NCBI GenBank assembly: GCA_027920525.1
Contig: CP115858.1
Span: 2,356,001 to 2,420,000 of the forward strand
From: Chryseobacterium daecheongense
Lineage (GTDB): Bacteria > Bacteroidota > Bacteroidia > Flavobacteriales > Weeksellaceae
Length of the DNA: 64,000 nt
Reading direction: 5' to 3'
The position numbers and the translations under genes were made by a program. This document shows, one piece after another, positions 48,925 through 64,000 of this stretch; position 1 is the first letter of the stretch, and the number at the start of each line of letters is the position of its first letter. The notes under the pieces were generated by a model, which worked only from the letters and a program-made list of their open reading frames with translations, was not told the DNA's origin and did not search any database.

Positions 48925-48932
48925 AAAGCCAG

Positions 48933-49004
48933 AGCCAACTACGGGACTTGAACCCGTGACCTCTTCCTTACCAAGGAAGCACTCTACCGCTGAGCTAAGT
49001 CGGC
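48933..49004 (-). tRNA. tRNA-Thr (GGT)
   Basis: Acceptor stem GCCGACT/AGTTGGC, anticodon loop TTGGTAA, T loop TTCAAGT. CCA not encoded. Corresponds in position and anticodon to thrT before tufB in E. coli. Confidence 0.93.
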
Positions 49005-49046
49005 ATTAAGCAAAAAAATCACACTTTAATAGCATGATTTTTTTTG

Positions 49047-49119
49047 AGCGGAAGACGGGGGTCGAACCCGCGACATTCAGCTTGGAAGGCTGACGCTCTA
49101 CCAACTGAGCTACTTCCGC
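49047..49119 (-). tRNA. tRNA-Gly (TCC), copy 1
   Basis: Acceptor stem GCGGAAG/CTTCCGC, anticodon loop CTTCCAA. It is identical over the whole gene to copy 2 at 49471-49543. Confidence 0.93.
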
Positions 49120-49153
49120 AATTTTGTTTCCAAAACTATTGGTAAACGCTGTG

Positions 49154-49184
49154 CAAACTTATAAAAAACCTTTTAAATCTGCAA
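49154..49184 (-). promoter_or_regulatory. Internal promoter before tRNA-Gly copy 1
   Basis: -7 box TAAGTTTG (49154-49161), spacer 20 nt, -33 TTG (49182-49184). The duplicate at 49578-49608 keeps the same layout with TAGATTTG. Confidence 0.55.
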
Positions 49185-49206
49185 GTTTTTTTTCAAATAT
49201 AAAATG

Positions 49207-49287
49207 TGGGAAGAGCAGGATTCGAACCTGCGAAGCCGAAGCAACTGAGTTACAGTCAGTCCCATTTAGCCACTCTGGAATCTTCCC
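49207..49287 (-). tRNA. tRNA-Tyr (GTA), copy 1
   Basis: Class II tRNA with a long variable arm, acceptor stem GGGAAGA/TCTTCCC, anticodon loop CTGTAAC. Confidence 0.93.
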
Positions 49288-49306
49288 TCATGTTTATATT
49301 AAATTG

Positions 49307-49380
49307 AGCCTCCAGAGGGATTCGAACCCACGACCCCGAGATTACAAATCACGTGCTCTGGCCAACTGAGCTATGGAGGC
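49307..49380 (-). tRNA. tRNA-Thr (TGT), copy 1
   Basis: Acceptor stem GCCTCCA/TGGAGGC, anticodon loop TTTGTAA. The anticodon stem has one T-T mismatch in its middle, and both copies share it. Confidence 0.9.
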
Positions 49381-49435
49381 AATTTAAACTGTCTGAGGCT
49401 ATCCGAAGGCAATCTATCTTAAGCTGTATCAGGTT

Positions 49436-49467
49436 TAAAAAAAATCACGCCTTGTGGTGTGATTTTA
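49436..49467 (-). terminator. Terminator-like hairpin between the two tRNA repeats
   Basis: The stem AATCACGCC/GGTGTGATT with loop TTGT is followed by a T-run on the minus strand. A degenerate equivalent (49013-49044) precedes tRNA-Thr(GGT), so each repeat unit seems to end with one. Confidence 0.55.
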
Positions 49468-49470
49468 CTG

Positions 49471-49543
49471 AGCGGAAGACGGGGGTCGAACCCGCGACAT
49501 TCAGCTTGGAAGGCTGACGCTCTACCAACTGAGCTACTTCCGC
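49471..49543 (-). tRNA. tRNA-Gly (TCC), copy 2
   Basis: Same sequence as copy 1, 424 bp away. Confidence 0.93.
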
Positions 49544-49577
49544 AATTTTGTTTCCAAAACTATTGGTAAACGCTGTG

Positions 49578-49608
49578 CAAATCTATAAAAAACCTTTTAA
49601 ATCTGCAA
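49578..49608 (-). promoter_or_regulatory. Internal promoter before tRNA-Gly copy 2
   Basis: -7 box TAGATTTG (49578-49585), spacer 20 nt, -33 TTG (49606-49608). The two copies differ at the nn bases of the box but keep TA and TTTG. Confidence 0.55.
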
Positions 49609-49629
49609 GTTTTTTTTCAATATAAACAG

Positions 49630-49710
49630 TGGGAAGAGCAGGATTCGAACCTGCGAAGCCGAAGCAACTGAGTTACAGTCAGTCCCATTTAGCCACTCTG
49701 GAATCTTCCC
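49630..49710 (-). tRNA. tRNA-Tyr (GTA), copy 2
   Basis: Same as copy 1, with the long variable arm and anticodon loop CTGTAAC. Confidence 0.93.
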
Positions 49711-49726
49711 TAGTTTATATTAAATG

Positions 49727-49800
49727 AGCCTCCAGAGGGATTCGAACCCACGACCCCGAGATTACAAATCACGTGCTCTGGCCAACTGAGCTATGGAGGC
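49727..49800 (-). tRNA. tRNA-Thr (TGT), copy 2
   Basis: Same as copy 1. First tRNA of the operon. Confidence 0.9.
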
Positions 49801-52408: not shown

Positions 52409-52808
52409 GGGGTTGACTGGTTTCGACAGCAAGATCAATGGGTAAGTAAGCATGCAGAGAACCGTAGCGCGATCTCTATAATCCCTTGCTACAAAATTTT
52501 AACTGGCAACGAAGAGTTCGCTCTTGCAGCTTAATATCGAAGTTTAGTAGATTCAAGCGCTTTCCCGAAGATTTTAGTAGGGAAGCAAGATATTCCACAA
52601 ATGCTCTGTTCTGCGGCGTTTGATCCTGGGATATAGGAATGCAGAAATAAGGTTTTAGATGCTTCGGCTAAAACTCGAAAACCTCAGAAGATAAGCTGGA
52701 AGTTGGGTGTCTGCTCTCTGCCTCCAGTCGAAAACCAATAGTAGAATAAGCATGTAGAAAGCTTATGTATTGCTTGTTTGGACGAGGGTTCGAATCCCTC
52801 CAACTCCA
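52409..52808 (+). ncRNA. ssrA: Transfer-messenger RNA
   Basis: The tRNA-like ends pair (GGGGTTG at the 5' end with CAACTCC at the 3' end), with the T arm GGGTTCGAATCCC and the 5' signature GACTGGTTTCGACAG. The tag frame at 52505-52534 reads GNEEFALAA-stop, so with the tRNA Ala the tag is (A)GNEEFALAA. It rescues stalled ribosomes. The 3' CCA is not fully encoded (ACA). Its 3' end is a common island attachment site, and a variable region follows here. Confidence 0.96.
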
Positions 52809-52812
52809 CAAA

Positions 52813-52934: not shown

Positions 52935-55900
52935 TCACCCCATTGTGGATGGTCTGACCTTTCCAAAAGTTTCTAATTCCATAAACTTTGATTTAAACAA
53001 GGAAGATGGTATTTTCTTCTTTAATAGATTATGAAAATTTTCGTCGTGAGTGGAAAGTATTATCTGCTTTTCGTGGTTAACAACAATACTTCGTAGCAAA
53101 TCAATAGTAGACAGAATATTTATACTGTCCATTGACTGAATTGGGTCGTCTACAAATATACAGTCTATAGAATTCCCGTCATCATCTTTTGCATTAAGAG
53201 CTTTTGCTAAAAAAATACAAAGACTTAAAATATTAAGCTGAGCCTGACTAAAGTATAAATTAGGAATAATAAAATCGTCAGAATTATTCTTTCCATAGAC
53301 ACATACGTTTAGCTTTGGTTTGGCATCTTTAAAATCAGGAATAAATTTCACTTTCGTATATTCGGGATGAGGGTCAATTCTTTTATACAAATCATTGATA
53401 AGGTCTTCATAGAAGAAAGATTTTATCTGCTTTTCGATATGGGAATTTACTTTTTCTATTTCTCCCTTTAATAATTTAGTAACCTTTTTCTTTTTATCAA
53501 TATTACTTTTGATATTGTTCTCAATTTTCTTATTTTCTTCGAATTCCAAGTAAGGAAGAACATTATCCTTCAGTTCTGATAAAAGTTCTAATTGTTTTAT
53601 TTCCTCATTATAATCAGATATCTTTTTCTCGTTTTCCTCTTTGGATTTCGCAATGGAGTCATTAAAAACATCTTCATCCATCTTATCAATATCAGAATTA
53701 ATATATTTCCCAGCATTCAGTTTATAAATATCAACACCAGCAGAAATCCGAATCAAGGTTTCATTGATTTGAGTGATTTCGTCAGTTACGTTTTCCTCTA
53801 TGGATTCCTGAAGTTCAGTTTCTAATATCTTTATTGTATCTGATAAGTTTTGTATGCTATTAAGATTCTTTTGAATATTAGCACTAATATTTTCTACATC
53901 AGTATCCAACTGTTTGGAATCTATTTTCTGATTTGGATAATTTTTCAAGAAAAAATCTCTGGTTTCTTTTAAAATATCTGAGTTTTCCAATACTTGAAGT
54001 CCTGACTTTTCTGCTTCTAATTTCTTAATGATTATTTGCTGTTGCTCTCTGTCTTTTAAAAGTTTATTATTTAATACTTGAATTGTTAATTTTAACTTTT
54101 CCAATTCAGCTCTATAAGAATTGATTATTTCTTTTGCCCAAGCTTCATATTCTTCTTTGGATTTATTTTGCAATAATACTCTTTGAGAAGACAAGATTTT
54201 CATTTCACTTAGTAATTTATTCTGAAGTTCAGTAAGAGTTTTATTAATACTCAAAATGTTTTTACTAATATCTTTTTCAGCCAATTCATCCGTTGAAATA
54301 TCTTTGCCTATTATTGCAACAAGTTCCTGTACATTTTTTGACAGCCCTTCTAGAAGTTCCTGATGAGATTTTTCAATTTCATTTTTTTCATTTAAAAGTT
54401 CAGACATCCTTTGTGATAAAAGCTTATTACTTGACACAGCATTAGCCAAATTGTGATATGTTTTATAGTCCTGGTTACATAACGGGCACGAACTTGTTTT
54501 CTGTTCATTAATGATAGACAATCCTTTTGAAACAAATAATTCCAAATCTTTCTGAAAACTTTTTTGCCCTTCTATTTGAAGATTTAGAGATTGTAACTGT
54601 TTGCTTTTTTCCTCTAATAATTTTTCAGAATTTAATATCTTTTCGATATAAAGTTTATATTTTTCAAATGTACTTTCAAATTGTGACGGATAATTTTTGT
54701 TACTAATTTCTGAAAGAGCTTTTTTTAGTCCCTCAATTCGATTGGAAATTCTATTAAGTTTATTTTTTTCTTTTTCTAATGTTTCAGTAGTTTGTTTTAT
54801 ATCATCATTGACTTTGGTGATATTATTCTGACTATTCTCTATAATGTTTACTATTTCAGGAAGTTGCTCGATTTTTTTCTCAACCTCATTCAATTGGTTC
54901 TGAAAATTATCTGTTTTCGCTGTATTTTCATTTAAAGTAGACTCACTTTCGGATATTTCTTTCGCAGAACTTTCTTTTGCTATTTTTAAATCTGAAATCT
55001 CTTTTTCCTTTTGTTCTATCTGAGTAATAATTTTTGTGTAATCTGGTAAGGTTTTTAATATATCTTCTTTTCGTTTTTTTTTAGAATCAAGTTCCTTATT
55101 CTTATTCTGTATAGATTCTATCTGGTCTTTCTTCTGTTTAAGGTTTATAAATTTTGTTCTGATTATCGCTAAAGCCGACAATCTTTCTGCAAGATTCGTT
55201 TGCTCTTTTATATAGTCTCTAAAACCCCTGAAACTTAAAATTCTTTCATTCCCGGATATAAGAAGTTCAAGCTCAGTAAATACTTCTCTTAATCTACTGA
55301 TATTATGGTTTAAATCATTTTTCCTTTCAGAAATCGTGTTGGATAACTCTAAGATATCTTTACCGGAGGTATAAGTATCCACAATTCTGAACTGATTGCC
55401 CAACTCATTTAATAAATTTATTTTTTCATTGATTTTAGACAATATCTCAATATCTGCATCATATTTTAGTTTAGGTAGAATTCCCTTCAAATCATTCTGC
55501 AGAGATTTTAGAAGTTTTTCATTTTTTGTTATTAATTCATCCAAAGACTTGCGATAATTATCCAAATCCTTATCTCCAAAAAAGTCTATGAATTTTGTAA
55601 ATCTCTCATCCGGTTTGTCTTCTCTGAGAAAGCTACTTATCCAATCTTGAGAAAGAATGACTTCTCTAAAATATCCACGTTTGGTTTCATTTTCGTCAAA
55701 TTTATAATCAGCAGTATTCTTTCTTGGAGTGGGTATTTTCTTATTAAAAACATCAGAGGTGGTAGTAAGTTTAACATAGCTTTCTAAATTTGCGTCAGAA
55801 AGACGATTTCTTAATATATATTGCTTTTCACTTTTGTTAATGTTCTTTTCGGATTTTGCAACATCCTTGTTTTTATTTTTCAGTAATCTATCTATATTAT

Positions 55901-56072
55901 TTGTAATGCTATATTCTACAGCATCATAGAAGGATGTTTTACCAAACCCGTTGGGCGCATAAAGTGAGACAAAATCAGCATATTTACCATCATTGATTCC
56001 AAAATCAAATGTGCTGTTCTCTGCTTTATCATAAGCCCTGAAAGCCTGAATCTCTACTTTTTTAATTTTCAT
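52935..56072 (-). CDS. Rad50/SMC-like ABC ATPase of an ABC-three-component-type system
   Basis: 1045 aa. Walker A APNGFGKTS at 39-47, long coiled coils (~170-900) broken by a zinc-hook-like CPLCNQDY near residue 527, then the ABC signature region SQAQLNILSLCIFLAKAL (~942) and Walker B DCIFVDDPIQSMD (~970). This is the AAA/ABC arrangement of Rad50-type conflict ATPases. It is last in a four-gene operon and overlaps the middle gene by 11 nt. It probably senses foreign DNA or replication state and drives the effectors. Confidence 0.85.
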   Translation of the reverse strand: MKIKKVEIQAFRAYDKAENSTFDFGINDGKYADFVSLYAPNGFGKTSFYDAVEYSITNNIDRLLKNKNKDVAKSEKNINKSEKQYILRNRLSDANLESYVKLTTTSDVFNKKIPTPRKNTADYKFDENETKRGYFREVILSQDWISSFLREDKPDERFTKFIDFFGDKDLDNYRKSLDELITKNEKLLKSLQNDLKGILPKLKYDADIEILSKINEKINLLNELGNQFRIVDTYTSGKDILELSNTISERKNDLNHNISRLREVFTELELLISGNERILSFRGFRDYIKEQTNLAERLSALAIIRTKFINLKQKKDQIESIQNKNKELDSKKKRKEDILKTLPDYTKIITQIEQKEKEISDLKIAKESSAKEISESESTLNENTAKTDNFQNQLNEVEKKIEQLPEIVNIIENSQNNITKVNDDIKQTTETLEKEKNKLNRISNRIEGLKKALSEISNKNYPSQFESTFEKYKLYIEKILNSEKLLEEKSKQLQSLNLQIEGQKSFQKDLELFVSKGLSIINEQKTSSCPLCNQDYKTYHNLANAVSSNKLLSQRMSELLNEKNEIEKSHQELLEGLSKNVQELVAIIGKDISTDELAEKDISKNILSINKTLTELQNKLLSEMKILSSQRVLLQNKSKEEYEAWAKEIINSYRAELEKLKLTIQVLNNKLLKDREQQQIIIKKLEAEKSGLQVLENSDILKETRDFFLKNYPNQKIDSKQLDTDVENISANIQKNLNSIQNLSDTIKILETELQESIEENVTDEITQINETLIRISAGVDIYKLNAGKYINSDIDKMDEDVFNDSIAKSKEENEKKISDYNEEIKQLELLSELKDNVLPYLEFEENKKIENNIKSNIDKKKKVTKLLKGEIEKVNSHIEKQIKSFFYEDLINDLYKRIDPHPEYTKVKFIPDFKDAKPKLNVCVYGKNNSDDFIIPNLYFSQAQLNILSLCIFLAKALNAKDDDGNSIDCIFVDDPIQSMDSINILSTIDLLRSIVVNHEKQIILSTHDENFHNLLKKKIPSSLFKSKFMELETFGKVRPSTMG

Positions 56073-56619
56073 TGTCTAATCCTGTTTCAATTTTGGTTAA
56101 TAGTTCTATCAAAGTATCGTCATCAGCTTTTTTGGGATTATCTTTTATGAAATCATCAAAAATATTACCTACCAAATCATTTTTAGAAAACTCACCAACA
56201 TCTATGGATTGTACTTCAAACTGAATATCATCATTTACAATGTGTTCTGAAATAATATTGTTGATTACATCATCATTAATTAGCGGAGTTTCCATTTCAA
56301 TGACAATTTTCCTCGTGCTGAATTTATTATTCTCAATCTCATATTTTAGAGGTTTCGGAATCTCTTCTGTAACAAAAAAGATATAAGAATTCCATTTGGA
56401 AAAATCATTATCCAACTTAATAAGGTATTCAGCTGTTACCAGACTATTCAGCTCTTTCCAATGCTTTTCTAAATTATCCAAACTTTTGAATTGAACCAAG
56501 ATGACCGGAATATTACTTCCAAATGTCAAATTCCCAACAACTGTCTCTTGAACATCAAAATTATTTTTAATCTGAGTTATAATACTTTGGTTATCTTCTA
56601 TTCTATCAAATGATTCCAT
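56062..56619 (-). CDS. Small middle component of the ABC-three-component-like system
   Basis: This 185-aa soluble protein has no recognised catalytic motif (residues such as IDVGEFSKNDLVGNIFDDFIKDNPKKADDDTLIELLTKIE near the end). It overlaps both neighbours (11 nt with the ATPase, 14 nt with the protease). In ABC-three-component systems a middle component of about this size links the ATPase to the effector. The assignment rests on position and size. Confidence 0.65.
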   Translation of the reverse strand: MESFDRIEDNQSIITQIKNNFDVQETVVGNLTFGSNIPVILVQFKSLDNLEKHWKELNSLVTAEYLIKLDNDFSKWNSYIFFVTEEIPKPLKYEIENNKFSTRKIVIEMETPLINDDVINNIISEHIVNDDIQFEVQSIDVGEFSKNDLVGNIFDDFIKDNPKKADDDTLIELLTKIETGLDNEN

Positions 56620-57880
56620 CTGTTAATTCTTTAATTGTCATTTTTGAATTTACACTATTTACATTTGCCAACTGAATCGCATTATTAATAATATGATGCT
56701 GGAATTTAAAGATATTGACCAATTTCAAATCAACAAAAGGGTTTTGAACAGTATTACTAATATTCATCTCATCCAAAGGAATAGAAATATCGGGAAGGAT
56801 GCTCAGTAAATCCTCAGTAATTTCCTGTACACTTGGAACTTTTTCTTCCGTTGCACAAATAACTATACTTCCTCCTTTTTCGATTTCGGACAAGTCTGAT
56901 TTATAAATTTCTTCTAATTTTTTTATCCATACATCCGTGTCAACAATTAACATTTTCCTTTTTTTATGAATACTTTCAAAATCACCAAGGTCAACTGTTT
57001 CTTCATAAAGTTTAATTATGGTAAAAAATTCAAGCAGACATTTCCATAAAGACTTATGATAAATAATATGGTCAGGAGTTCCATTTACTAAAAACTTTCC
57101 CTTGTACTCTTTAATAATCTTATCTGGATTAGTACCATCGCATATATCCTTTGATATTTTTAATAGTGTATTCCTAATTACATCTTTTTTAATTATTAGA
57201 CTATCGAAGGGGAAAATCTCTTGTAGTAAAATATTAAAGGTACCTATATAAGGAGGAAAAAGAGGTGATAATAGGGTCTTATTTTGTTCTACAATTTCAT
57301 CAAAAAATGATAAGGGAGCAAAATGAATTCTGGAAATAGACTCTACATCGTCTTCAACAGCCATTTTCTTCTGTATTCCTGCGAGAAGAAAACAAGAATT
57401 CTCAGATTTGATAATTCCACCACCAGACTGTCCTACAATTTCTGAATGTGTGACCGCTTTCTCAATTTCAGCTTCGATATAAAGTTCAACAGGATTTTCA
57501 ATCTTAAGTTTATTTTTTCTATACGAGAAGTTCCCATTTATACGAGTTTCGGGATGTCCGCATAAATACCAATTTTCTTTTTCTATTAAATCTAAATCCG
57601 CTCTTAAAAGACCGTCAATATTATCTACTTTTTTAACTTTTATAATGGATGCATCTTTGTTAGGGTCAATATGTAAAAAAGGATTTCCAATAATTTCTAA
57701 ACTTTCGTTTTCTACTTGCCCATTTTCATTAATGTATTGCCTTATAATTTCAATATTATCATGACCATCAACAACATGTTTAGCTGTTAAAACATAACTA
57801 TATTCGGTGTCGATTGGCTGAAACAGACAACCACTTCCATCGGCTACTTTTACCGTGAAAAACTGTAAACTATCTCTCAT
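56606..57880 (-). CDS. Trypsin-like serine protease component with C-terminal domain
   Basis: This 424-aa protein has no signal peptide. The first ~200 residues form a chymotrypsin-like domain with the full triad: His35 in LTAKHVV, Asp76 in NKDASIIKV and Ser152 in GQSGGGII. Residues ~210-424 are a helical region without known motif, probably the ABC-three-component C-terminal domain that contacts the middle component. Cytoplasmic proteolysis as an effector step is inferred. It overlaps the middle gene by 14 nt and lies 2 nt after the MBL gene. Confidence 0.8.
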   Translation of the reverse strand: MRDSLQFFTVKVADGSGCLFQPIDTEYSYVLTAKHVVDGHDNIEIIRQYINENGQVENESLEIIGNPFLHIDPNKDASIIKVKKVDNIDGLLRADLDLIEKENWYLCGHPETRINGNFSYRKNKLKIENPVELYIEAEIEKAVTHSEIVGQSGGGIIKSENSCFLLAGIQKKMAVEDDVESISRIHFAPLSFFDEIVEQNKTLLSPLFPPYIGTFNILLQEIFPFDSLIIKKDVIRNTLLKISKDICDGTNPDKIIKEYKGKFLVNGTPDHIIYHKSLWKCLLEFFTIIKLYEETVDLGDFESIHKKRKMLIVDTDVWIKKLEEIYKSDLSEIEKGGSIVICATEEKVPSVQEITEDLLSILPDISIPLDEMNISNTVQNPFVDLKLVNIFKFQHHIINNAIQLANVNSVNSKMTIKELTDGII

Positions 57881-57882
57881 AA

Positions 57883-58935
57883 CTAAAATGAATCTGTACC
57901 TAAATATTTAACATTTGGAAAATCAATTCTATCTTGTCCCAAAATTATTTTTGAAATAAGATTGGGATAATTAAAGTATATTTTAGCTTCAGGATTTACA
58001 GCTACGATTCTTGCAATAGTAGCTTTATCCGGATGGTTGTGAGTATCTCCATTTGTGCTTATTATATATTTATCGGCATCAACTATTTTGAAGATTTCAA
58101 TTGGATTATTTTTTTTACTACCGTGATGTGATAGTTTTATCATATCTACTGATAGCTTATTGTTTTCGTCATATCCTAAACAATCCAGCTCTATCAGAAC
58201 TTCCGATGGATGAGAATCTCCTAAAAGCAGAAAATTTTCCTCATCTCTTTTTAGGATAAATGCTATCGAACTGCCATTATATGGGTCATCATCTTCTTCA
58301 AAACTATCTTCTTCTATTAGTTGCTTCAATGTTTTTGAATAGTCAGTTTTTCTGGAAGTATCCAGCAAGGATTCAGGTTTCTTTTTATGCCATTCCTTAA
58401 GTAGTTTACCAAGCTTTTCTTTACCGGGAGATAAAATTTGAAAGGAAATATTATTCCAGTTGAGTATATCCTTCTGAGCAATTATTCTTTCGTCCCAGAC
58501 ACCACAATCTCTTATATAATTTTCAAAATCAACACCCTGTTTTACACTAGTCAGCGTTGTAGTTTCTTTGAATTTTAAAGAATCAACTTCAGATTTAACA
58601 TCATTGAGATATTTTTTAATTGCTCTACCGGAATTGAACCAAACTTCTTTTATATATTGAATGGCATCTTTGTCTTTACCAAACCATTTTAAAAAACCAT
58701 CAATATGGTCATCATCAATATGTGTGAGAATCACCAAATCCAGAATTTCTTTTTTTTCTTTTAAGGATTCTATCAAAAGTTTTAATGCACCGTCCTTATG
58801 TTTTTTATTTTTATCCGTATAAGAATAAGTTGTAGATGTACCTCCGTCTATCAGAATGTTTTTATTACCTCCAGCATCTGTGAAGGAAATCCATATAGAG
58901 TCACCGTTAAACGCTTGCAAAAATTGAATTTTCAT
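57883..58935 (-). CDS. ComEC/Rec2-like metallo-beta-lactamase fold hydrolase
   Basis: 350 aa, MBL fold. Metal motifs are THIDDDHIDG (71-80, the ComEC form of HxHxDH), GDSHPSE, KLSHHGSKKNNP (~268) and STNGDTHNHPDK. ComEC-type MBL domains are nucleases, so it may cut DNA or RNA. First gene of the operon, starting at ATG 58935, with the half-site palindrome at 58969-58988 just upstream. No membrane part, unlike ComEC itself. Confidence 0.85.
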   Translation of the reverse strand: MKIQFLQAFNGDSIWISFTDAGGNKNILIDGGTSTTYSYTDKNKKHKDGALKLLIESLKEKKEILDLVILTHIDDDHIDGFLKWFGKDKDAIQYIKEVWFNSGRAIKKYLNDVKSEVDSLKFKETTTLTSVKQGVDFENYIRDCGVWDERIIAQKDILNWNNISFQILSPGKEKLGKLLKEWHKKKPESLLDTSRKTDYSKTLKQLIEEDSFEEDDDPYNGSSIAFILKRDEENFLLLGDSHPSEVLIELDCLGYDENNKLSVDMIKLSHHGSKKNNPIEIFKIVDADKYIISTNGDTHNHPDKATIARIVAVNPEAKIYFNYPNLISKIILGQDRIDFPNVKYLGTDSF

Positions 58936-59345
58936 AGTTTGGAAATTTAGTTTTTTTTATATGTATTGAATTACGGGAATCCGTAATTTTCTATAAAATT
59001 GATTGAAACTATATAAAATTAATCAAATTTCAAGATTAATCCAGAAATTATAAGTAAAAAAAATCCTAGAGAGGAAATTAATAGTAAGAACATTTTGCGC
59101 GAAATATTTAAGATTTCCTGTATAAATATATAGACCCGAGTCATTAAAATCTACTTCAGTAGTGATAATAACCATAGACTTTTCGGAGCGTAATGATTTT
59201 TTTGATTTATATAACAAAATCCAAAATGATAGAAAAGCTTTCAATCATAATTTCAGTCTCGTATTTGAAGTTTCTTCATTCGTTTTTTAATAAAGAAATA
59301 ATAACAAGTCATTTTTCGAAAAAAATACCGATTGTGGGCGGTATT
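58936..59345 (-). promoter_or_regulatory. Upstream region of the ABC-three-component operon
   Basis: A 410-bp A+T-rich gap. It holds the palindrome AATTACGG-N4-CCGTAATT (58969-58988) 34 bp before the MBL ATG and the XRE terminator at 59320-59347. The short minus frame at 59023-59244 has a Phe/Tyr/Ile-rich product and no start context, so I see no gene. Confidence 0.45.
58969..58988. promoter_or_regulatory. Operator-like palindrome before the ABC-three-component operon
   Basis: Arms AATTACGG and CCGTAATT with a 4-nt spacer. The ATTACGG half-site is also found in the XRE gene's operator at 59610-59631, so the XRE protein may bind here too. Confidence 0.5.
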
Positions 59346-59347
59346 TT
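59320..59347 (-). terminator. Terminator of the XRE gene
   Basis: Stem AAAATACCG/CGGTATTTT with an 8-nt loop and a T-run on the minus strand. It begins within the stop codon. Confidence 0.75.
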
Positions 59348-59579
59348 ATTCATTTAAGAGATTAAAAAATTGTTCAAGAGTAATTTTTCTTGCTTTGCAA
59401 ATTCTATAAAGTGTTTCAACAGGAATTCTGTATGTAGCATCACTCTTGATTTTTCTTACAGTACTTTCTTCGATATCGTGATTTTTAGCAAACGAGTTCT
59501 GTGACTTATTTTCTTTAAGCCAAGGAATCAACCAATTTTTAGTGATATACGAACAGATTTTCTCGTTTATGTCAATCAT
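59346..59579 (-). CDS. Small XRE-family HTH regulator
   Basis: This 77-aa protein (ATG 59579) is a single helix-turn-helix domain: NSFAKNHDIEESTVRKIKSD for the HTH and YRIPVETLYRICKARKITLEQFFNLL for the following helices. The frame continues to 59603, but the added residues are not conserved-looking. A 22-bp perfect palindrome lies 31 bp upstream, and its half-site recurs before the ABC-three-component operon. It is a candidate controller of the island genes. Confidence 0.85.
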   Translation of the reverse strand: MIDINEKICSYITKNWLIPWLKENKSQNSFAKNHDIEESTVRKIKSDATYRIPVETLYRICKARKITLEQFFNLLNE

Positions 59580-59609
59580 ATAACAAAAGAAATATTTTGA
59601 CATTGAAAT

Positions 59610-59631
59610 ATTACGGTCGTTCGACCGTAAT
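59610..59631. promoter_or_regulatory. 22-bp perfect palindromic operator
   Basis: Arms ATTACGGTCG and CGACCGTAAT around TT. It lies between the XRE start (59579) and the sigma operon promoter (-33 at 59650), so it can control both directions. Confidence 0.65.
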
Positions 59632-59649
59632 TAAATTATTTTTATTATA

Positions 59650-59681
59650 TTTGGAATAAATTATTTATAAAAGTAATTTTG
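59650..59681 (+). promoter_or_regulatory. Predicted promoter of the sigma-dCas12f operon
   Basis: -33 TTTG (59650-59653), 20-nt spacer and -7 box TAATTTTG (59674-59681). A second box TATATTTG overlaps the -33 (59646-59653). The predicted start is ~59688, leaving a ~270-nt leader before the sigma ATG. Confidence 0.5.
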
Positions 59682-59731
59682 CGATAGTTCAAAGAAATAT
59701 AGAAGCTATTGCTTAGATTCTCGACTGGAAA

Positions 59732-59820
59732 ACTGGCACTTTTCAAAAAGCAACGAGAGGATAAGTAAATGTGCCCACGACTTCGGCGTGGGCTCACTTA
59801 TCGTTGCTTGGTATGCCAGT
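59732..59820. repeat. Long imperfect inverted repeat in the sigma operon leader
   Basis: Nested complementary arms are ACTGGCA (59732-59738)/TGCCAGT (59814-59820), AAGCAACGA (59748-59756)/TCGTTGCTT (59801-59809), GATAAGT (59760-59766)/ACTTATC (59796-59802) and GCCCACG (59773-59779)/CGTGGGC (59787-59793), with small bulges. The right arm contains CGGCGTGGGCTC (59784-59795), which recurs at the 3' end of the candidate guide RNA (61946-61957). It could be an RNA structure, a regulatory target or a relic of a mobile element. The rest of the 59604-59958 gap shows no gene. Confidence 0.6.
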
Positions 59821-59958
59821 ACCACCGGTCGGTAAGATGAGTTCCACGCCTTTCTTTTGGGCAAAATGTTGTGAGTGAGTAATTTTAAATGATATAGCGA
59901 ATTCATCTTGTTAATCGAAGCAGTTCTTCAATGGATAGTCAAATCTAATTCACTGCTT

Positions 59959-60774
59959 ATGAAAAGAACAAGCTTACCACCCCGAAAACTAACTGATTTT
60001 CAGTTATACGAACTACTGAAAAAAGGTAATCCCACGTCATTAGAACATATCCATTTACGGTACAAAAGACTCCTTTTCTGGATCGGAAAACAGATGCTTG
60101 ACGATGATTTTGTCGTGGAAACACTTGTGCAGGATACATTTCTAAAATTATGGTTACACCGTGATTCCATAGAAACGCCAAATCATATTCTAGGCTTTCT
60201 GCGATTTGTTTTGAAAAGAGACTGTATATCCTATTTTACTGCTCCAAAAAATAAATTCGCTCGTTTGACAGCTTCGCTTGAAAGTTTTGAGAATTATCAG
60301 GATTATCTTATAGGATATGATCCTCTGCAAGACAAAGAACATCTACTTCAGCAGGAATCCGATCAAAAAGATTTTGATGAAGTCAATAAGGTCTTAAAGG
60401 TGATAAACCCAAAACGAAAGCATCTAATCGAGCTTTGCCTTCAATATGGCTTTCGGTACAAACCCATTGCAGAAGCAATGGGAAGCAGTGTAAAAGACAT
60501 TAGCAATGAGATAAGCAAGGCAATAGATGATCTGAGGAAAATCTTGAGAGCAAATTCTGATGAAAAGCCAGCAGTAAAATGCCAGACAGGTTCAATTCAG
60601 CCATCTGAACTTAGCAGTCAACAAATTGAAATTTTAAACAGAAGATTTGAACAGCAATCTTCATTTGCTGTCATTGCAAGAGAACTCAAACTTTCTGAAA
60701 AAGAAGTCCATCAGGAGTTTCTTTATGCTTATCAATTTTTACAGAATCGAAACAAGTCTGAAACACCTATTTGA
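59959..60774 (+). CDS. Sigma-70 family (ECF-like) factor paired with a Cas12f-like protein
   Basis: ATG 59959 (MKRTSLPPRKLTDFQLYELL) gives 271 aa; the frame is open back to 59908. Region 2 covers ~32-88 (HLRYKRLLFWIGKQMLDDDFVVETLVQDTFLKLWLHRDS), with the usual VQDTFLKLW. Region 4 covers ~143-198 (KHLIELCLQYGFRYKPIAEAMGSSVKDISNEI). After that is an additional ~50-residue HTH-like tail (SSQQIEILNRRFEQQSSFAVIARELKLSEKEVHQEF), longer than plain ECF sigmas. No anti-sigma gene is adjacent. It should recruit RNA polymerase, possibly guided by the partner. Confidence 0.85.
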   Translation: MKRTSLPPRKLTDFQLYELLKKGNPTSLEHIHLRYKRLLFWIGKQMLDDDFVVETLVQDTFLKLWLHRDSIETPNHILGFLRFVLKRDCISYFTAPKNKFARLTASLESFENYQDYLIGYDPLQDKEHLLQQESDQKDFDEVNKVLKVINPKRKHLIELCLQYGFRYKPIAEAMGSSVKDISNEISKAIDDLRKILRANSDEKPAVKCQTGSIQPSELSSQQIEILNRRFEQQSSFAVIARELKLSEKEVHQEFLYAYQFLQNRNKSETPI

Positions 60775-60775
60775 T

Positions 60776-61870
60776 ATGGAAAAATCCACAATAACACTGA
60801 CCCGAAAAATTCAATTACTAATTAATGTTCCGTCTGATCAAAAAAATGAGATATGGGAAAAACTCTATCGATATCAGAACAGATGTTTCCGAGCGGCCAA
60901 CTTAATAGCTTCCCATCTATATGTTCAGGAAATGATCAAAGATTTCTTTTATCTTACAGAAGAAATACAATATAAGTTAGCTGATGAAAAAAAAGATCAG
61001 ATGGGAATGTTTGACCGTTCGAAAACAAATAGCACAGCAAGAATGGTCTTTGACCGATTCAAAGGAGAAATCCCGACAGACATTCTGGGAAGCCTTAACA
61101 ATACGATCCAATCAACTTTCTCTAAAAACAAAGCCGATTATTGGCAGGGAACAAAATCACTTAGAAATTTTAAAAGAGACATTCCAATCCCACTTCCTGT
61201 TAAATGCATCAGTAAAATGAGATATGACGAAGAAACGAAAGCCTTTTATTTCAATATATTTGCGATACCTGTCCAAACATATTTAGGAAAAGACTATACT
61301 GATAAGCGAGTGATTATGGAACGGCTGCTAAAAAATGAGATAAAACTTTGCACCTCTCAAATCCAACTGAAAGGCAGGAAAATCTTCTGGCTTGCAGTTT
61401 TTGAATTTGAAAAAGAAGAACACCATTTAAAACCAGAAATCATTGCGGAAGCTTCCCTCTCTCTGGAACACCCCATAGTTGCAAAAGCTAACAATGTACG
61501 AATCAATATTGGCTCAAAAGAAGAGTATTTGTATCGCAGGCTCGCAATTCAGGCAAGTCAAAAAAGGATTCAAGATGGTATACCGTATGCCCGTTCAGGA
61601 AATGGAGTAAAACGGAAACAAAAGGCATTGTATAAAACAAAGAACTTGGAAAGCAGATATATAAGCAATCGTCTTCACGTGTACAGTCGACAGCTTATCG
61701 ATTTCTGCATAAAACAACAGGCAGGCACACTTATTCTTAAAAATCAAGATGACAAAATTGGGATTGCAAAAGAACAGGAATTCGTGCTTCGTAATTGGAG
61801 TTATTACGAGTTGCAAAGTAAAATAAAATACAAAGCTGAAAAAGCCGGAATAGAATTAATCATTGGATAA
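60776..61870 (+). CDS. Nuclease-dead Cas12f/TnpB-like protein
   Basis: 364 aa from ATG 60776, 1 nt after the sigma stop; the longer frame at 60647 overlaps the sigma gene. The N-terminal half has helical REC-like segments. The RuvC-I strand reads VRINIGSKEEYL (~242-253), where active enzymes have DLG, so the catalytic Asp is Asn. The bridge helix LESRYISNRLHVYSRQLIDFC is recognisable, and RuvC-II reads TLILKNQDD, where the catalytic Glu is Lys. The chain ends at ELIIG, before the zinc finger and RuvC-III Asp. It should bind RNA-guided DNA without cutting. TldR-type repressor is the alternative. Confidence 0.75.
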   Translation: MEKSTITLTRKIQLLINVPSDQKNEIWEKLYRYQNRCFRAANLIASHLYVQEMIKDFFYLTEEIQYKLADEKKDQMGMFDRSKTNSTARMVFDRFKGEIPTDILGSLNNTIQSTFSKNKADYWQGTKSLRNFKRDIPIPLPVKCISKMRYDEETKAFYFNIFAIPVQTYLGKDYTDKRVIMERLLKNEIKLCTSQIQLKGRKIFWLAVFEFEKEEHHLKPEIIAEASLSLEHPIVAKANNVRINIGSKEEYLYRRLAIQASQKRIQDGIPYARSGNGVKRKQKALYKTKNLESRYISNRLHVYSRQLIDFCIKQQAGTLILKNQDDKIGIAKEQEFVLRNWSYYELQSKIKYKAEKAGIELIIG

Positions 61871-62437
61871 AAAAATAAGAGGGTGCTTGTACACCCGCAG
61901 GGTGAGGTCTTGAACACTCACTAAATACTCTAATAGTATATACAACGGCGTGGGCTCTTTTTTTCTAGAATCGGGAACATCTTTAATTAAATTATTTTTA
62001 ATTATACAAATCTTAATAGATTGAATAAAAAAAAATCTTTTATTCTGGTTTCTGTCTTTGTCGAAGAATAAAAGAGCGCTCTTGTTAAGTTTACTTGAAA
62101 GTGAAATTTTTACCACTACTGCCGATGTTATGTAAGGGTAATCAATTTGCCTTTCAACTTTACTAAATATCCCAAAAAGTGAATCATCATATTAAATTTC
62201 GAATTCTGGATCAGTTTCTTTTCAAAAAGTCAAATAATTTTTGTTTGTAGCCTTTCCACATATTTTCGGCTTGATGCTAAGGTTTTGCACTTTGCGAAGG
62301 CGGATTTACTAAACTTGTCAGATCCACAAAGTTCAACATTTCACTGTATTAGAGGCTCACACTTTCAGAAATGACTTTGGTATTCTCCTTTTTATTAGGT
62401 CATTCTATTTCGCTTTTGATAATAAAGTTCGCAAATG
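61871..62437. other. 567-bp gap after the Cas12f-like gene
   Basis: The first ~95 bp hold the candidate guide RNA. The rest (61965-62437) is A+T-rich with a perfect 12-bp palindrome AAGAGCGCTCTT (62072-62083) and no convincing gene; the minus frame at 61856-62116 runs through the RNA element and is rejected. It may mark a junction between island modules. Confidence 0.4.
61880..61964 (+). ncRNA. Candidate guide RNA for the Cas12f-like protein
   Basis: Just after the stop codon come three stem-loops: GGGTG/CACCC (61881-61896), GTGAG/CTCAC (61902-61921) and ATACT/AGTAT (61925-61939). Next come ATACAAC, CGGCGTGGGCTC (61946-61957) and a T7 run. Cas12f repeats often end in CAAC followed by the guide, so the guide may be the ~11-12 nt after it. 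No CRISPR repeats are seen, so it would be a single-guide form. Boundaries and processing are inferred. Confidence 0.55.
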
Positions 62438-63175
62438 CTATTGGTTAATTAAAATCAATAATTTTTCTGCCTTCCTTATATCTTCGTTTTGGTCCGGATT
62501 TGATTTCTGTTCAATAGAAGCTAAATAAACTGTATCATCAATCTCGTTAAAGTAAACCCTAAGAGCTACTGGTTGATATACTCTTAATTCATAAACAGTA
62601 CACTTTTTTGAAACACTTACATCCTTTACTATTTTTGTATCGGGATAAAATCTCGTTGCGAGATTTCTATTGGATGCTTTCTCAAACTCATATTTGATGG
62701 ATTCTTGCGCATCAGCAGAAAGAGAAGCATAACTTTTTTCAAAATTCTTAGTGATTACCGAATTGCCAAGAAATGCTATCAAGTGTTCCAAATTTGTTTG
62801 ATAAAATTGAATCCAGTTTAAGTATGAGTCTGGACCTATAACTTTTTTGTGGTCTGTTATTGCTTGATTATTAAAATCAATCCCAAGAAAGCCATTAATA
62901 TTTCTTTTACAATAATTGTTTGCAGTGATTTCGTCTTGAACTTCAGCATCACAAGGACTTAACTTTGCAAAAAAATTGTATAGATTAAAAATGTCAATGT
63001 CGTGCATATTAGAAAAAATGCTATTAGTAAAATGATGAATTTGATAGCAACTATCATTTCTGAAAAAAATATGCTCTTGCTTTTTTTCAATACTCATTAA
63101 CTGAATAACACCACTTTTGAATATTTCAAAATCATCAGTATTTAACGATTGATTGTTTAAAAAGAAGTCGCTCAT
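62438..63175 (-). CDS. Unknown protein with RelE-like C-terminal domain, partner of the ATPase
   Basis: This 245-aa protein's first ~180 residues are not recognised. The last ~65 (KCTVYELRVYQPVALRVYFNEIDDTVYLASIEQKSNPDQNEDIRKAEKLL) follow the RelE/HigB toxin pattern YELR..RVYF..L..Q K....I.KAE, which in those proteins forms an RNase fold. The start codon overlaps the ATPase stop by 4 nt, so the two are made together. A toxin-type effector controlled by the ATPase is possible. No antitoxin gene lies between them. Confidence 0.6.
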   Translation of the reverse strand: MSDFFLNNQSLNTDDFEIFKSGVIQLMSIEKKQEHIFFRNDSCYQIHHFTNSIFSNMHDIDIFNLYNFFAKLSPCDAEVQDEITANNYCKRNINGFLGIDFNNQAITDHKKVIGPDSYLNWIQFYQTNLEHLIAFLGNSVITKNFEKSYASLSADAQESIKYEFEKASNRNLATRFYPDTKIVKDVSVSKKCTVYELRVYQPVALRVYFNEIDDTVYLASIEQKSNPDQNEDIRKAEKLLILINQ

Positions 63176-64000
63176 TTCTTTTTCAAGTTTAGAAGTTCCA
63201 CATAATCAATCTGTGTTTGGTCAAAAAAGCCTTTAGGCCACTCCAATAATTCACCTTTCTCATTGATATGAATTGGTTTTAGATTTGGTTGTTGTTTAAT
63301 TCCAAGGATTTTATCTTCTTGAAGTTCTTGTTTAGACTTATCTTCTTTGAAAAAATAATTTATAATAACATTCTTATAATTAATTGCTTTTCTGGCAACA
63401 GCTATTTGAATTCCGTTTATAATATGGTCGCTATGTGTTTCGACAATAATTTTAAGTCCAGAATTTGCCATTACTCCCAAAAATTCTCCCATTTTTGATT
63501 GAGCAGATGGGTGAAGATGTGCTTCTGGGTTTTCAATGATCAAGATGCTGTCCTTTTTTGCCAACAAGCAAGAAACAATTATTGGCAAAGAATAACTAAT
63601 ACCGAATCCAGTATTTGTCGGAAAAATACCTTTCCCATTTGAGTATAAATTATCTACTGATATTCTTGCAGTATGTGTTTCGCTATCCTTAACAGGAACA
63701 ATTGTCACTCCGTCAATTATTTTACTCAACCAAGCATTAACGTGATGTTGAAACTTACTCCCCTTTAAAAATTCAGGGTCGTTAAGAATTCTGTTAGGGT
63801 CTATTTTGAATTTACTTTCAATTTCAAGAGAATCCAAATCAGCAATTATTTGAGCAGTAAATTCTCCCTTAAACCCAACATTTGGGTAGTCATAAAACCT
63901 TATTCCTTGATTAATTCGCGGACCTATCCTCTCAGCATTGAGATAATAGAACTCGTGAAACATCAAGGGATTTTGAGGGAATTTAAAATCTTTTTTTAAA
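63172..64000 (-). CDS. AAA (ABC/OLD-like) ATPase with DUF3696-type C-terminus, 5' truncated
   Basis: The frame is open to the window end, so the N-terminal part with Walker A is outside; an ATG at 63963 is internal. The visible part has YLNAERIGPR, a signature-like region (NTGFGISYSLPIIVSCLLAKKDSILIIENPEAHLHPSAQSKMGEFL, with Walker B IIENPEAHLHP), the switch ETHSDHIINGI and the DUF3696 tail LLEWPKGFFDQ. Such ATPases occur in many phage-defence modules. First gene of a two-gene operon with the RelE-like protein. Confidence 0.85.
   Translation of the reverse strand, partial: LKKDFKFPQNPLMFHEFYYLNAERIGPRINQGIRFYDYPNVGFKGEFTAQIIADLDSLEIESKFKIDPNRILNDPEFLKGSKFQHHVNAWLSKIIDGVTIVPVKDSETHTARISVDNLYSNGKGIFPTNTGFGISYSLPIIVSCLLAKKDSILIIENPEAHLHPSAQSKMGEFLGVMANSGLKIIVETHSDHIINGIQIAVARKAINYKNVIINYFFKEDKSKQELQEDKILGIKQQPNLKPIHINEKGELLEWPKGFFDQTQIDYVELLNLKKK

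Follow-up and report, generated by a model that had tools for sequence, protein, structure and literature searches.

A nuclease-dead Cas12f and sigma factor unit with a short conserved guide, probably directed at attenuator-like leaders in Chryseobacterium daecheongense

Results

We analysed a 64,000-nt stretch of the Chryseobacterium daecheongense genome (contig CP115858.1, positions 2,356,001 to 2,420,000; hereafter the window, with coordinates counted from its first base), which carries at 59319–61964 a unit comprising, in order, a helix-turn-helix (HTH) regulator gene, a palindrome, a promoter-like TATATTTG, a structured leader, a sigma factor gene, a gene for a nuclease-dead Cas12f (dCas12f), a three-helix RNA and a predicted guide followed by a run of T. 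We favour, with some reserve, the reading that the sigma factor, dCas12f and the predicted guide RNA direct RNA-guided transcription of attenuated leaders, one of which is the unit's own. A first-pass annotation made from the sequence had already proposed an RNA-guided sigma–dCas12f system here, and the proposal was strengthened by nearly full-length matches to Protein Data Bank (PDB) chains, by the co-occurrence of scaffold and dCas12f across genomes and by matches between guide and leaders. The parts of the unit are as follows.

59346..59603, minus strand: divergent small HTH regulator gene, 85 aa (Pfam HTH_26, 1e-06)
59610..59632, no strand: perfect palindrome ATTACGGTCGTTCGACCGTAATT, candidate operator judged from its sequence
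59646..59653, plus strand: promoter-like motif TATATTTG of the TAnnTTTG type, conserved in relatives
59698..59882, plus strand: structured leader (49-leader alignment, covariation)
59773..59779, plus strand: site B (GCCCACG), which pairs with site A from upstream in the consensus fold
59785..59795, plus strand: site A, GGCGTGGGCTC, the unit's own predicted target and an exact match to the guide sequence
59842..59850, plus strand: site C (TTCCACGCC), with which site A can pair instead (complementarity, folds)
59851..59858, plus strand: T-rich run TTTCTTTT after site C, terminator-like in sequence, with predicted termination
59959..60774, plus strand: extracytoplasmic function (ECF)-type sigma factor gene, 271 aa from ATG (Pfam domains; PDB 9n9q_C, 5.1e-82)
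60776..61870, plus strand: nuclease-dead Cas12f gene, 364 aa (PDB 9n9c_A, 9.1e-158; active-site residues replaced)
61879..61946, plus strand: guide-RNA scaffold of three helices, ending in TATACAAC (28-sequence alignment; found with dCas12f only)
61947..61957, plus strand: predicted guide GGCGTGGGCTC (sequence comparison of copies)
61958..61964, plus strand: T-run at which the guide RNA probably ends (copies cease to be similar nearby)

Both proteins have close relatives of solved structure. Residues 1–364 of the Cas12f-like protein are covered by PDB 9n9c_A, 'Nuclease-deactivated Cas12f' (E 9.1e-158), with other Cas12f chains matching more weakly, and the protein also matches the PADLOC Cas12f profile (1.1e-51) and, below its cut-off, guided_TnpB NF040570 (1.7e-13). 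The sigma protein contains Sigma70_r2, Sigma70_r4_2 and a second r4 match (Pfam), and its residues 17–264 match the 'RpoE' chain 9n9q_C at 5.1e-82, in an entry that holds the dCas12f sequence as well; from these near full-length matches to 9n9q chains it follows that the kind of system is already known. The match takes in the C-terminal part of the sigma factor, which the first-pass annotation had regarded as an unusual extension; being common to 9n9q_C, this part is not peculiar to this genome. Translation of the sigma gene probably begins at ATG 59959 (271 aa) rather than at TTG 59908, because ATGAAAA occupies the same place in aligned relatives. As read at first pass, a single nucleotide separates the sigma stop (60774) from the dCas12f open reading frame (60776), and coordinates and profile matches agree on a sigma-70 family gene followed by a TnpB/Cas12f-like one. 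In a comparison set of 42 relatives from named genomes (two apiece in seven genomes), which with the window makes 43 loci, the sigma gene lies beside dCas12f in 41, the exceptions being one truncated locus and one fragment.

The 364-aa protein is homologous to the Cas12f chain 9nzo_B over residues 83–361 and differs from Cas12f nucleases in its RuvC active site, which is not intact: in the alignment the DLG motif stands opposite Ser227-Leu-Ser and the RuvC-II Glu opposite Lys322. Ser227 is kept across six aligned homologues; at the position of Lys322 the others carry Leu, Ile or Met. Its C-terminus matches, weakly (E 0.068), positions 1–20 of the 60-position TNB/zinc-ribbon Pfam profile, and since the protein ends inside this region, RuvC-III is missing. 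The truncation and the replacement of both catalytic residues had been recognised at first pass, but the Asp had been assigned to an NIG motif that aligns instead with GIG of 9nzo_B. We rejected a transposon TnpB on account of the replaced active site and the sigma partner.

The hairpin-rich element suspected behind the 364-aa gene reappeared as three helices in an alignment of 28 scaffolds, a chosen subset, with 16 pairs of which 3 show two-sided changes; taken alone, the downstream RNA does not exceed its shuffles in stability (z −0.43). The scaffold end TATACAAC is nearly invariant in these 28 copies and the sequence downstream of it is clade-specific. Scaffold and dCas12f travel together: of 197 family genomes, 45 have dCas12f and 44 of these also have the scaffold, which was found in none of the 152 genomes lacking dCas12f. 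A GGCGTGGGYTY-like guide is present in 34 of the 43 loci, window counted, where the guides of L028 and L043 come from direct reading and automated reading gave none for L004 and L038; in 7 of the 34 copies the guide is retained without a recognised leader of the unit's own. In L004 (C. cucumeris, near a contig end, 7160–7200) the scaffold stops before ACAAC and is followed by TGAATTAGTCAATAC. Genome G133 has two scaffolds with GGCGTGGGTTT/GGCGTGGGTTC guides (loci L148 and L150) away from its detected dCas12f genes.

Within the window CGGCGTGGG occurs twice, against 0.02 occurrences expected, and the exact guide 11-mer has two sites in the genome outside the guide itself (0.18 expected), both of them in leaders. 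The looser pattern GGCGTGGGYTY has four genome sites: the guide, the unit's own leader (59785–59795), a second leader at 4469922 and GGCGTGGGTTT at 282495. This second leader shares 79% identity with that of the unit, has a short divergent open reading frame upstream and is followed by genes for a SusC/RagA receptor, SusD and an S9-type peptidase; here the guide match extends to 12 nt. The base before GGCGTGGG in the targets can be A, C, T or G, and a constant G results only if the guide starts one base later.

The unit's upstream leader is more stable than its shuffles (z −4.51; equalled by none of 200), and 49 leaders, hand-picked for diversity, share a consensus fold in the form of a long hairpin with 30 pairs, 10 of them showing two-sided changes. 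In this fold site A pairs with the upstream site B. The search pattern included the apical stem but not site C, which means that part of the conservation at site A was built in by the search. Site A is complementary to site C too, which begins 57 bases downstream of the first base of A and ahead of a T-rich run. The A–C pairing holds in 97.2% of 392 cells, compared with 41–67% when the partner is slid and 95.8% with shuffled columns, where 97.2% was reached by 0 of 500 shuffles; three A–C pairs show two-sided changes, a number reached by 26 of 500 shuffles, and all eight pairs are kept in 41 of the 49 leaders. Predicted folds place A with C in an RNA that ends after the T-run and A with B in a longer one. 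The leader thus has the anatomy of an attenuator, with two mutually exclusive helices, one of them before a T-run, and on this anatomy it looks like one, premature termination being the predicted outcome. Rfam gave chance-level matches only in the window and no gathering-level match for the leader in four related loci, and on these results we rejected a known RNA family as its identity.

Beyond this genome the leader query matches at least 109 of the 197 family genomes; all leader counts are lower bounds, at most four candidates having been scored per genome. Among the 30 best-matching leader loci a short divergent open reading frame lies upstream in all 30, and the downstream gene belongs to a family of ~174-aa proteins in 15, is SusC in 12, both in 1 and neither in 2; the ~174-aa family has no Pfam or NCBIfam match. 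At locus L090 a member of this family lies 306–830 bases past the target, with relatives among L063–L089. A distant leader is associated with dCas12f at the level of the family, being present in at least 28 of 37 genomes with dCas12f (a list compiled by hand from genome searches, as were the genus counts below) vs 66 of 152 without (p 4.6e-4). Eight dCas12f-less genomes have 36 GGCGTGRGYTYT places, and the 30 that were read comprise 17 leaders and 13 others without a preceding scaffold; another guide RNA was also looked for in these 30 loci, and none with a scaffold was found. Most of twelve aligned Weeksellaceae susC leaders (L060–L085) have a second hairpin, AAAAGCCCcTTCC...GGGAAAGAGC, near the susC ATG, at the position where Flavobacteriaceae guides aim, and the genome studied here has no guide for it.

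Judging by the sequences compared, guide and target sites differ together between clades. Guides of Flavobacteriaceae begin with CCTTCCC, CTTCCC, CCTCCCC, AAAGCCTT and similar, behind up to four scaffolds in a row, and CCTTCCC...GGGAAGG hairpins occur in all five such genomes, at 13 places (details are available for nine; L259, L262 and L266 rest on a tblastn table), with none for the reversed control. Nine of the 13 precede SusC, three the unit's own sigma gene and one neither, and in the six loci with a read ATG the sites lie 78–86 bp ahead of the susC start codon. Over the nine places compared, the longest stretches shared by guide and site were 12, 12 and 11 nt in G200 and 10 nt in G199. 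In genus g21, guide AGCTCACTTATC of G092, shifted by six bases, and a leader of the same genome match over 12 nt; other guides of this genus gave weaker matches, or none in the stretches read. Wherever the gene downstream of a site could be named, its coding strand is the one that the guide matches.

Genus g26 carries arrays of guides. For one of these, AGAGCTCCTCACAT, genomes G118 and G155 each have two non-guide sites (control 0), and G105, which has no AGAGCTCCTCACAT guide, has three. Two of these seven sites precede SusC and two precede thioredoxin-like proteins (named by eye); the other three have no open reading frame of at least 100 aa beginning within 900 bp. The array guides GGGGCGGTTTTC, TGAGCGGTTTTC and AGAGCGCCTTTC, searched as a joint pattern in four genomes with guide copies counted, gave 60 places vs 49 for the reversed control, the excess lying mainly in G118 (20 vs 10), and the 30 loci read had no clear leader context; in G105 one GGGGCGGTTTTC lies 703 bp before an AGAGCTCCTCACAT site. 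Beside the guide array, G118 and G155 have extra partial dCas12f 3' ends (residues 271–364), as if these arrays grew by duplication of the end of the dCas12f gene together with the scaffold.

The unit has a copy number of one in this genome. Similarity among copies stops on the right near 61964 in most loci, and on the left at ~59319–59342 in six loci, as one continuous stretch, or at ~59630–59700 in many others. The TATATTTG promoter-like motif resembles TAnnTTTG, a Bacteroidota promoter motif. Relatives carry different palindromes at the position of ATTACGGTCGTTCGACCGTAATT, and small HTH-like genes from several unrelated clusters (C2, C3, C6, C14) at that of the HTH gene.

By PADLOC profiles the unit is flanked by a Lamassu-like cluster at 52935–58935 (LmuA metallo-beta-lactamase-fold and protease-type proteins, LmuC and LmuB) and an NsnB/NsnC-like pair at 62438–63966. 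We considered the unit as a defence gene on account of this position between Lamassu-like and Nsn-like genes and set the idea aside, as the neighbours of its relatives vary (restriction genes, a Cas9, relaxases, efflux genes and Rhs, named by eye). The ssrA island proposed at first pass is not supported; its basis is the proximity of a tmRNA gene (52409–52809). Seven consecutive tRNA genes lie at 48932–49800, with the Gly-Tyr-Thr triplet repeated. We saw no CRISPR array in the part of the window that was read on either side of the unit.

Discussion

In the mechanism that we propose, the guide RNA would be made and bound by dCas12f, and the complex may open the leader's DNA at its site A. Recruitment of the sigma factor would bring in RNA polymerase, with transcription likely to start at a fixed distance downstream, as this family is said to do. 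More speculatively still, transcripts from the HTH-controlled promoter would carry the whole hairpin and be attenuated through A–C pairing before the T-run, and RNA-guided starts past site A would escape attenuation, since the resulting transcripts would be without the A–C helix. The guide matches the unit's own leader, so the unit may feed back on itself, and the seven copies that have a guide without a recognised leader of their own point to sites elsewhere as the main targets. Since different genera keep the guide, it would control a whole regulon, made up of its own operon, susC operons and the small-protein family, instead of a single gene. We put forward more tentatively, and as possible rather than probable, a wider picture in which a horizontally spread sigma system with a fixed guide plugs into pre-existing bistable attenuator leaders and co-activates susC, small-protein and own operons, the arrays of its relatives aiming at several leader sites.

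Several observations weigh against RNA-guided transcription of the leaders. The leader is present in 66 of the 152 genomes without dCas12f, so either it does something in genomes that lack the system or loss and reacquisition of the system are frequent, and at the level of the genus the association of a distant leader with dCas12f is not significant (14 of 15 genomes with vs 27 of 35 without, p 0.25). The guide matches the unit's own leader imperfectly in 20 of 27 copies, and if the guide begins with GG, the 49-leader alignment has no conserved base before site A. Matches between guide and site reach only 5–8 nt in three Flavobacteriaceae genomes (at most 8 in G197 and G201, 7 in G198). Guides are present in G044 and G104, where a leader was looked for and none found; the guide of G113/G117 has no site in the stretches read, and the g26 array guides TGAGCGGTTTTC and AGAGCGCCTTTC have no convincing site.

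Some of these points would be expected if the leader were an independent riboregulator, composed of an HTH-controlled promoter and an attenuator, with the dCas12f–sigma pair serving no operon but its own and common ancestry of the leaders accounting for the match found before susC. Persistence of the leader in dCas12f-less genomes fits such an arrangement, as do the GGCGTGRGYTYT loci of eight such genomes (17 of 30 leaders, 13 without scaffold), and A–C and A–B pairing would explain the conservation of site A without any guide. We nevertheless regard it as unlikely, given that 7 of 34 copies retain the guide in the absence of a recognised own leader, that Flavobacteriaceae guides meet sites 78–86 bp before susC starts and that arrays contain several guides. 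Less likely again is antitermination, in which the guide RNA, with or without dCas12f, would base-pair to the leader transcript as it emerges, at site C or B, and DNA would not be the target. Sites B and C are complementary to the GGCGTGGG-like stretch of the guide and the leader has two mutually exclusive folds, as this would require, but the hybrid with site A DNA spans 11–12 nt vs ~7–8 pairs with B or C, the sigma gene adjoins dCas12f in 41 of 43 loci, and relatives of Cas12f act on DNA.

The least probable of the alternatives, in our estimation, is that dCas12f acts at site A as a repressor of the TldR type, blocking transcription there, with the sigma factor working separately. TldR proteins are TnpB-derived RNA-guided repressors for which, according to PMC13418256, guides as short as 6 nt sufficed for repression. 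The unit shares with them a dead TnpB/Cas12f-type protein and a short guide, which for TldR is enough, and a promoter-like motif stands upstream of site A. The linkage to sigma is tight, however (the same 41 of 43 loci), and the closest relatives of known structure are two chains of a single entry, dCas12f and RpoE.

PDB entries 9n9c, 9n9m, 9n9o and 9n9q are, we presume, the dCas12f–sigmaE complex of a 2025 report from the Sternberg laboratory, in which a dCas12f–sigmaE pair from Bacteroidetes reportedly starts transcription at the guide site, at a fixed distance and without promoter motifs. Published systems of this kind are said to have susC targets and a 5'-G target-adjacent motif. The unit described here shares with them both proteins over nearly their whole length (down to the truncated end of Cas12f and the C-terminal part of sigma), an adjacent sigmaE-type gene, a conserved scaffold and a guide match upstream of susC. 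It differs in having one short guide across Weeksellaceae genera, a family of attenuator-like leaders that includes its own, and arrays in relatives. A literature search on dCas12f–sigma work or on the leader returned nothing recognisable, subscription papers lying mostly outside that search. By comparison of sequences, then, the unit is a member of the dCas12f–sigma kind, and that search gave no description of its wiring, in which a short guide stays the same, the structured leaders form a family and relatives carry arrays.

If our reading is right, RNA-guided sigma factors would be more than switches in which one guide serves one gene. One short guide retained in several genera would specify a regulon, with targets that would be structured leaders restraining ordinary transcription.

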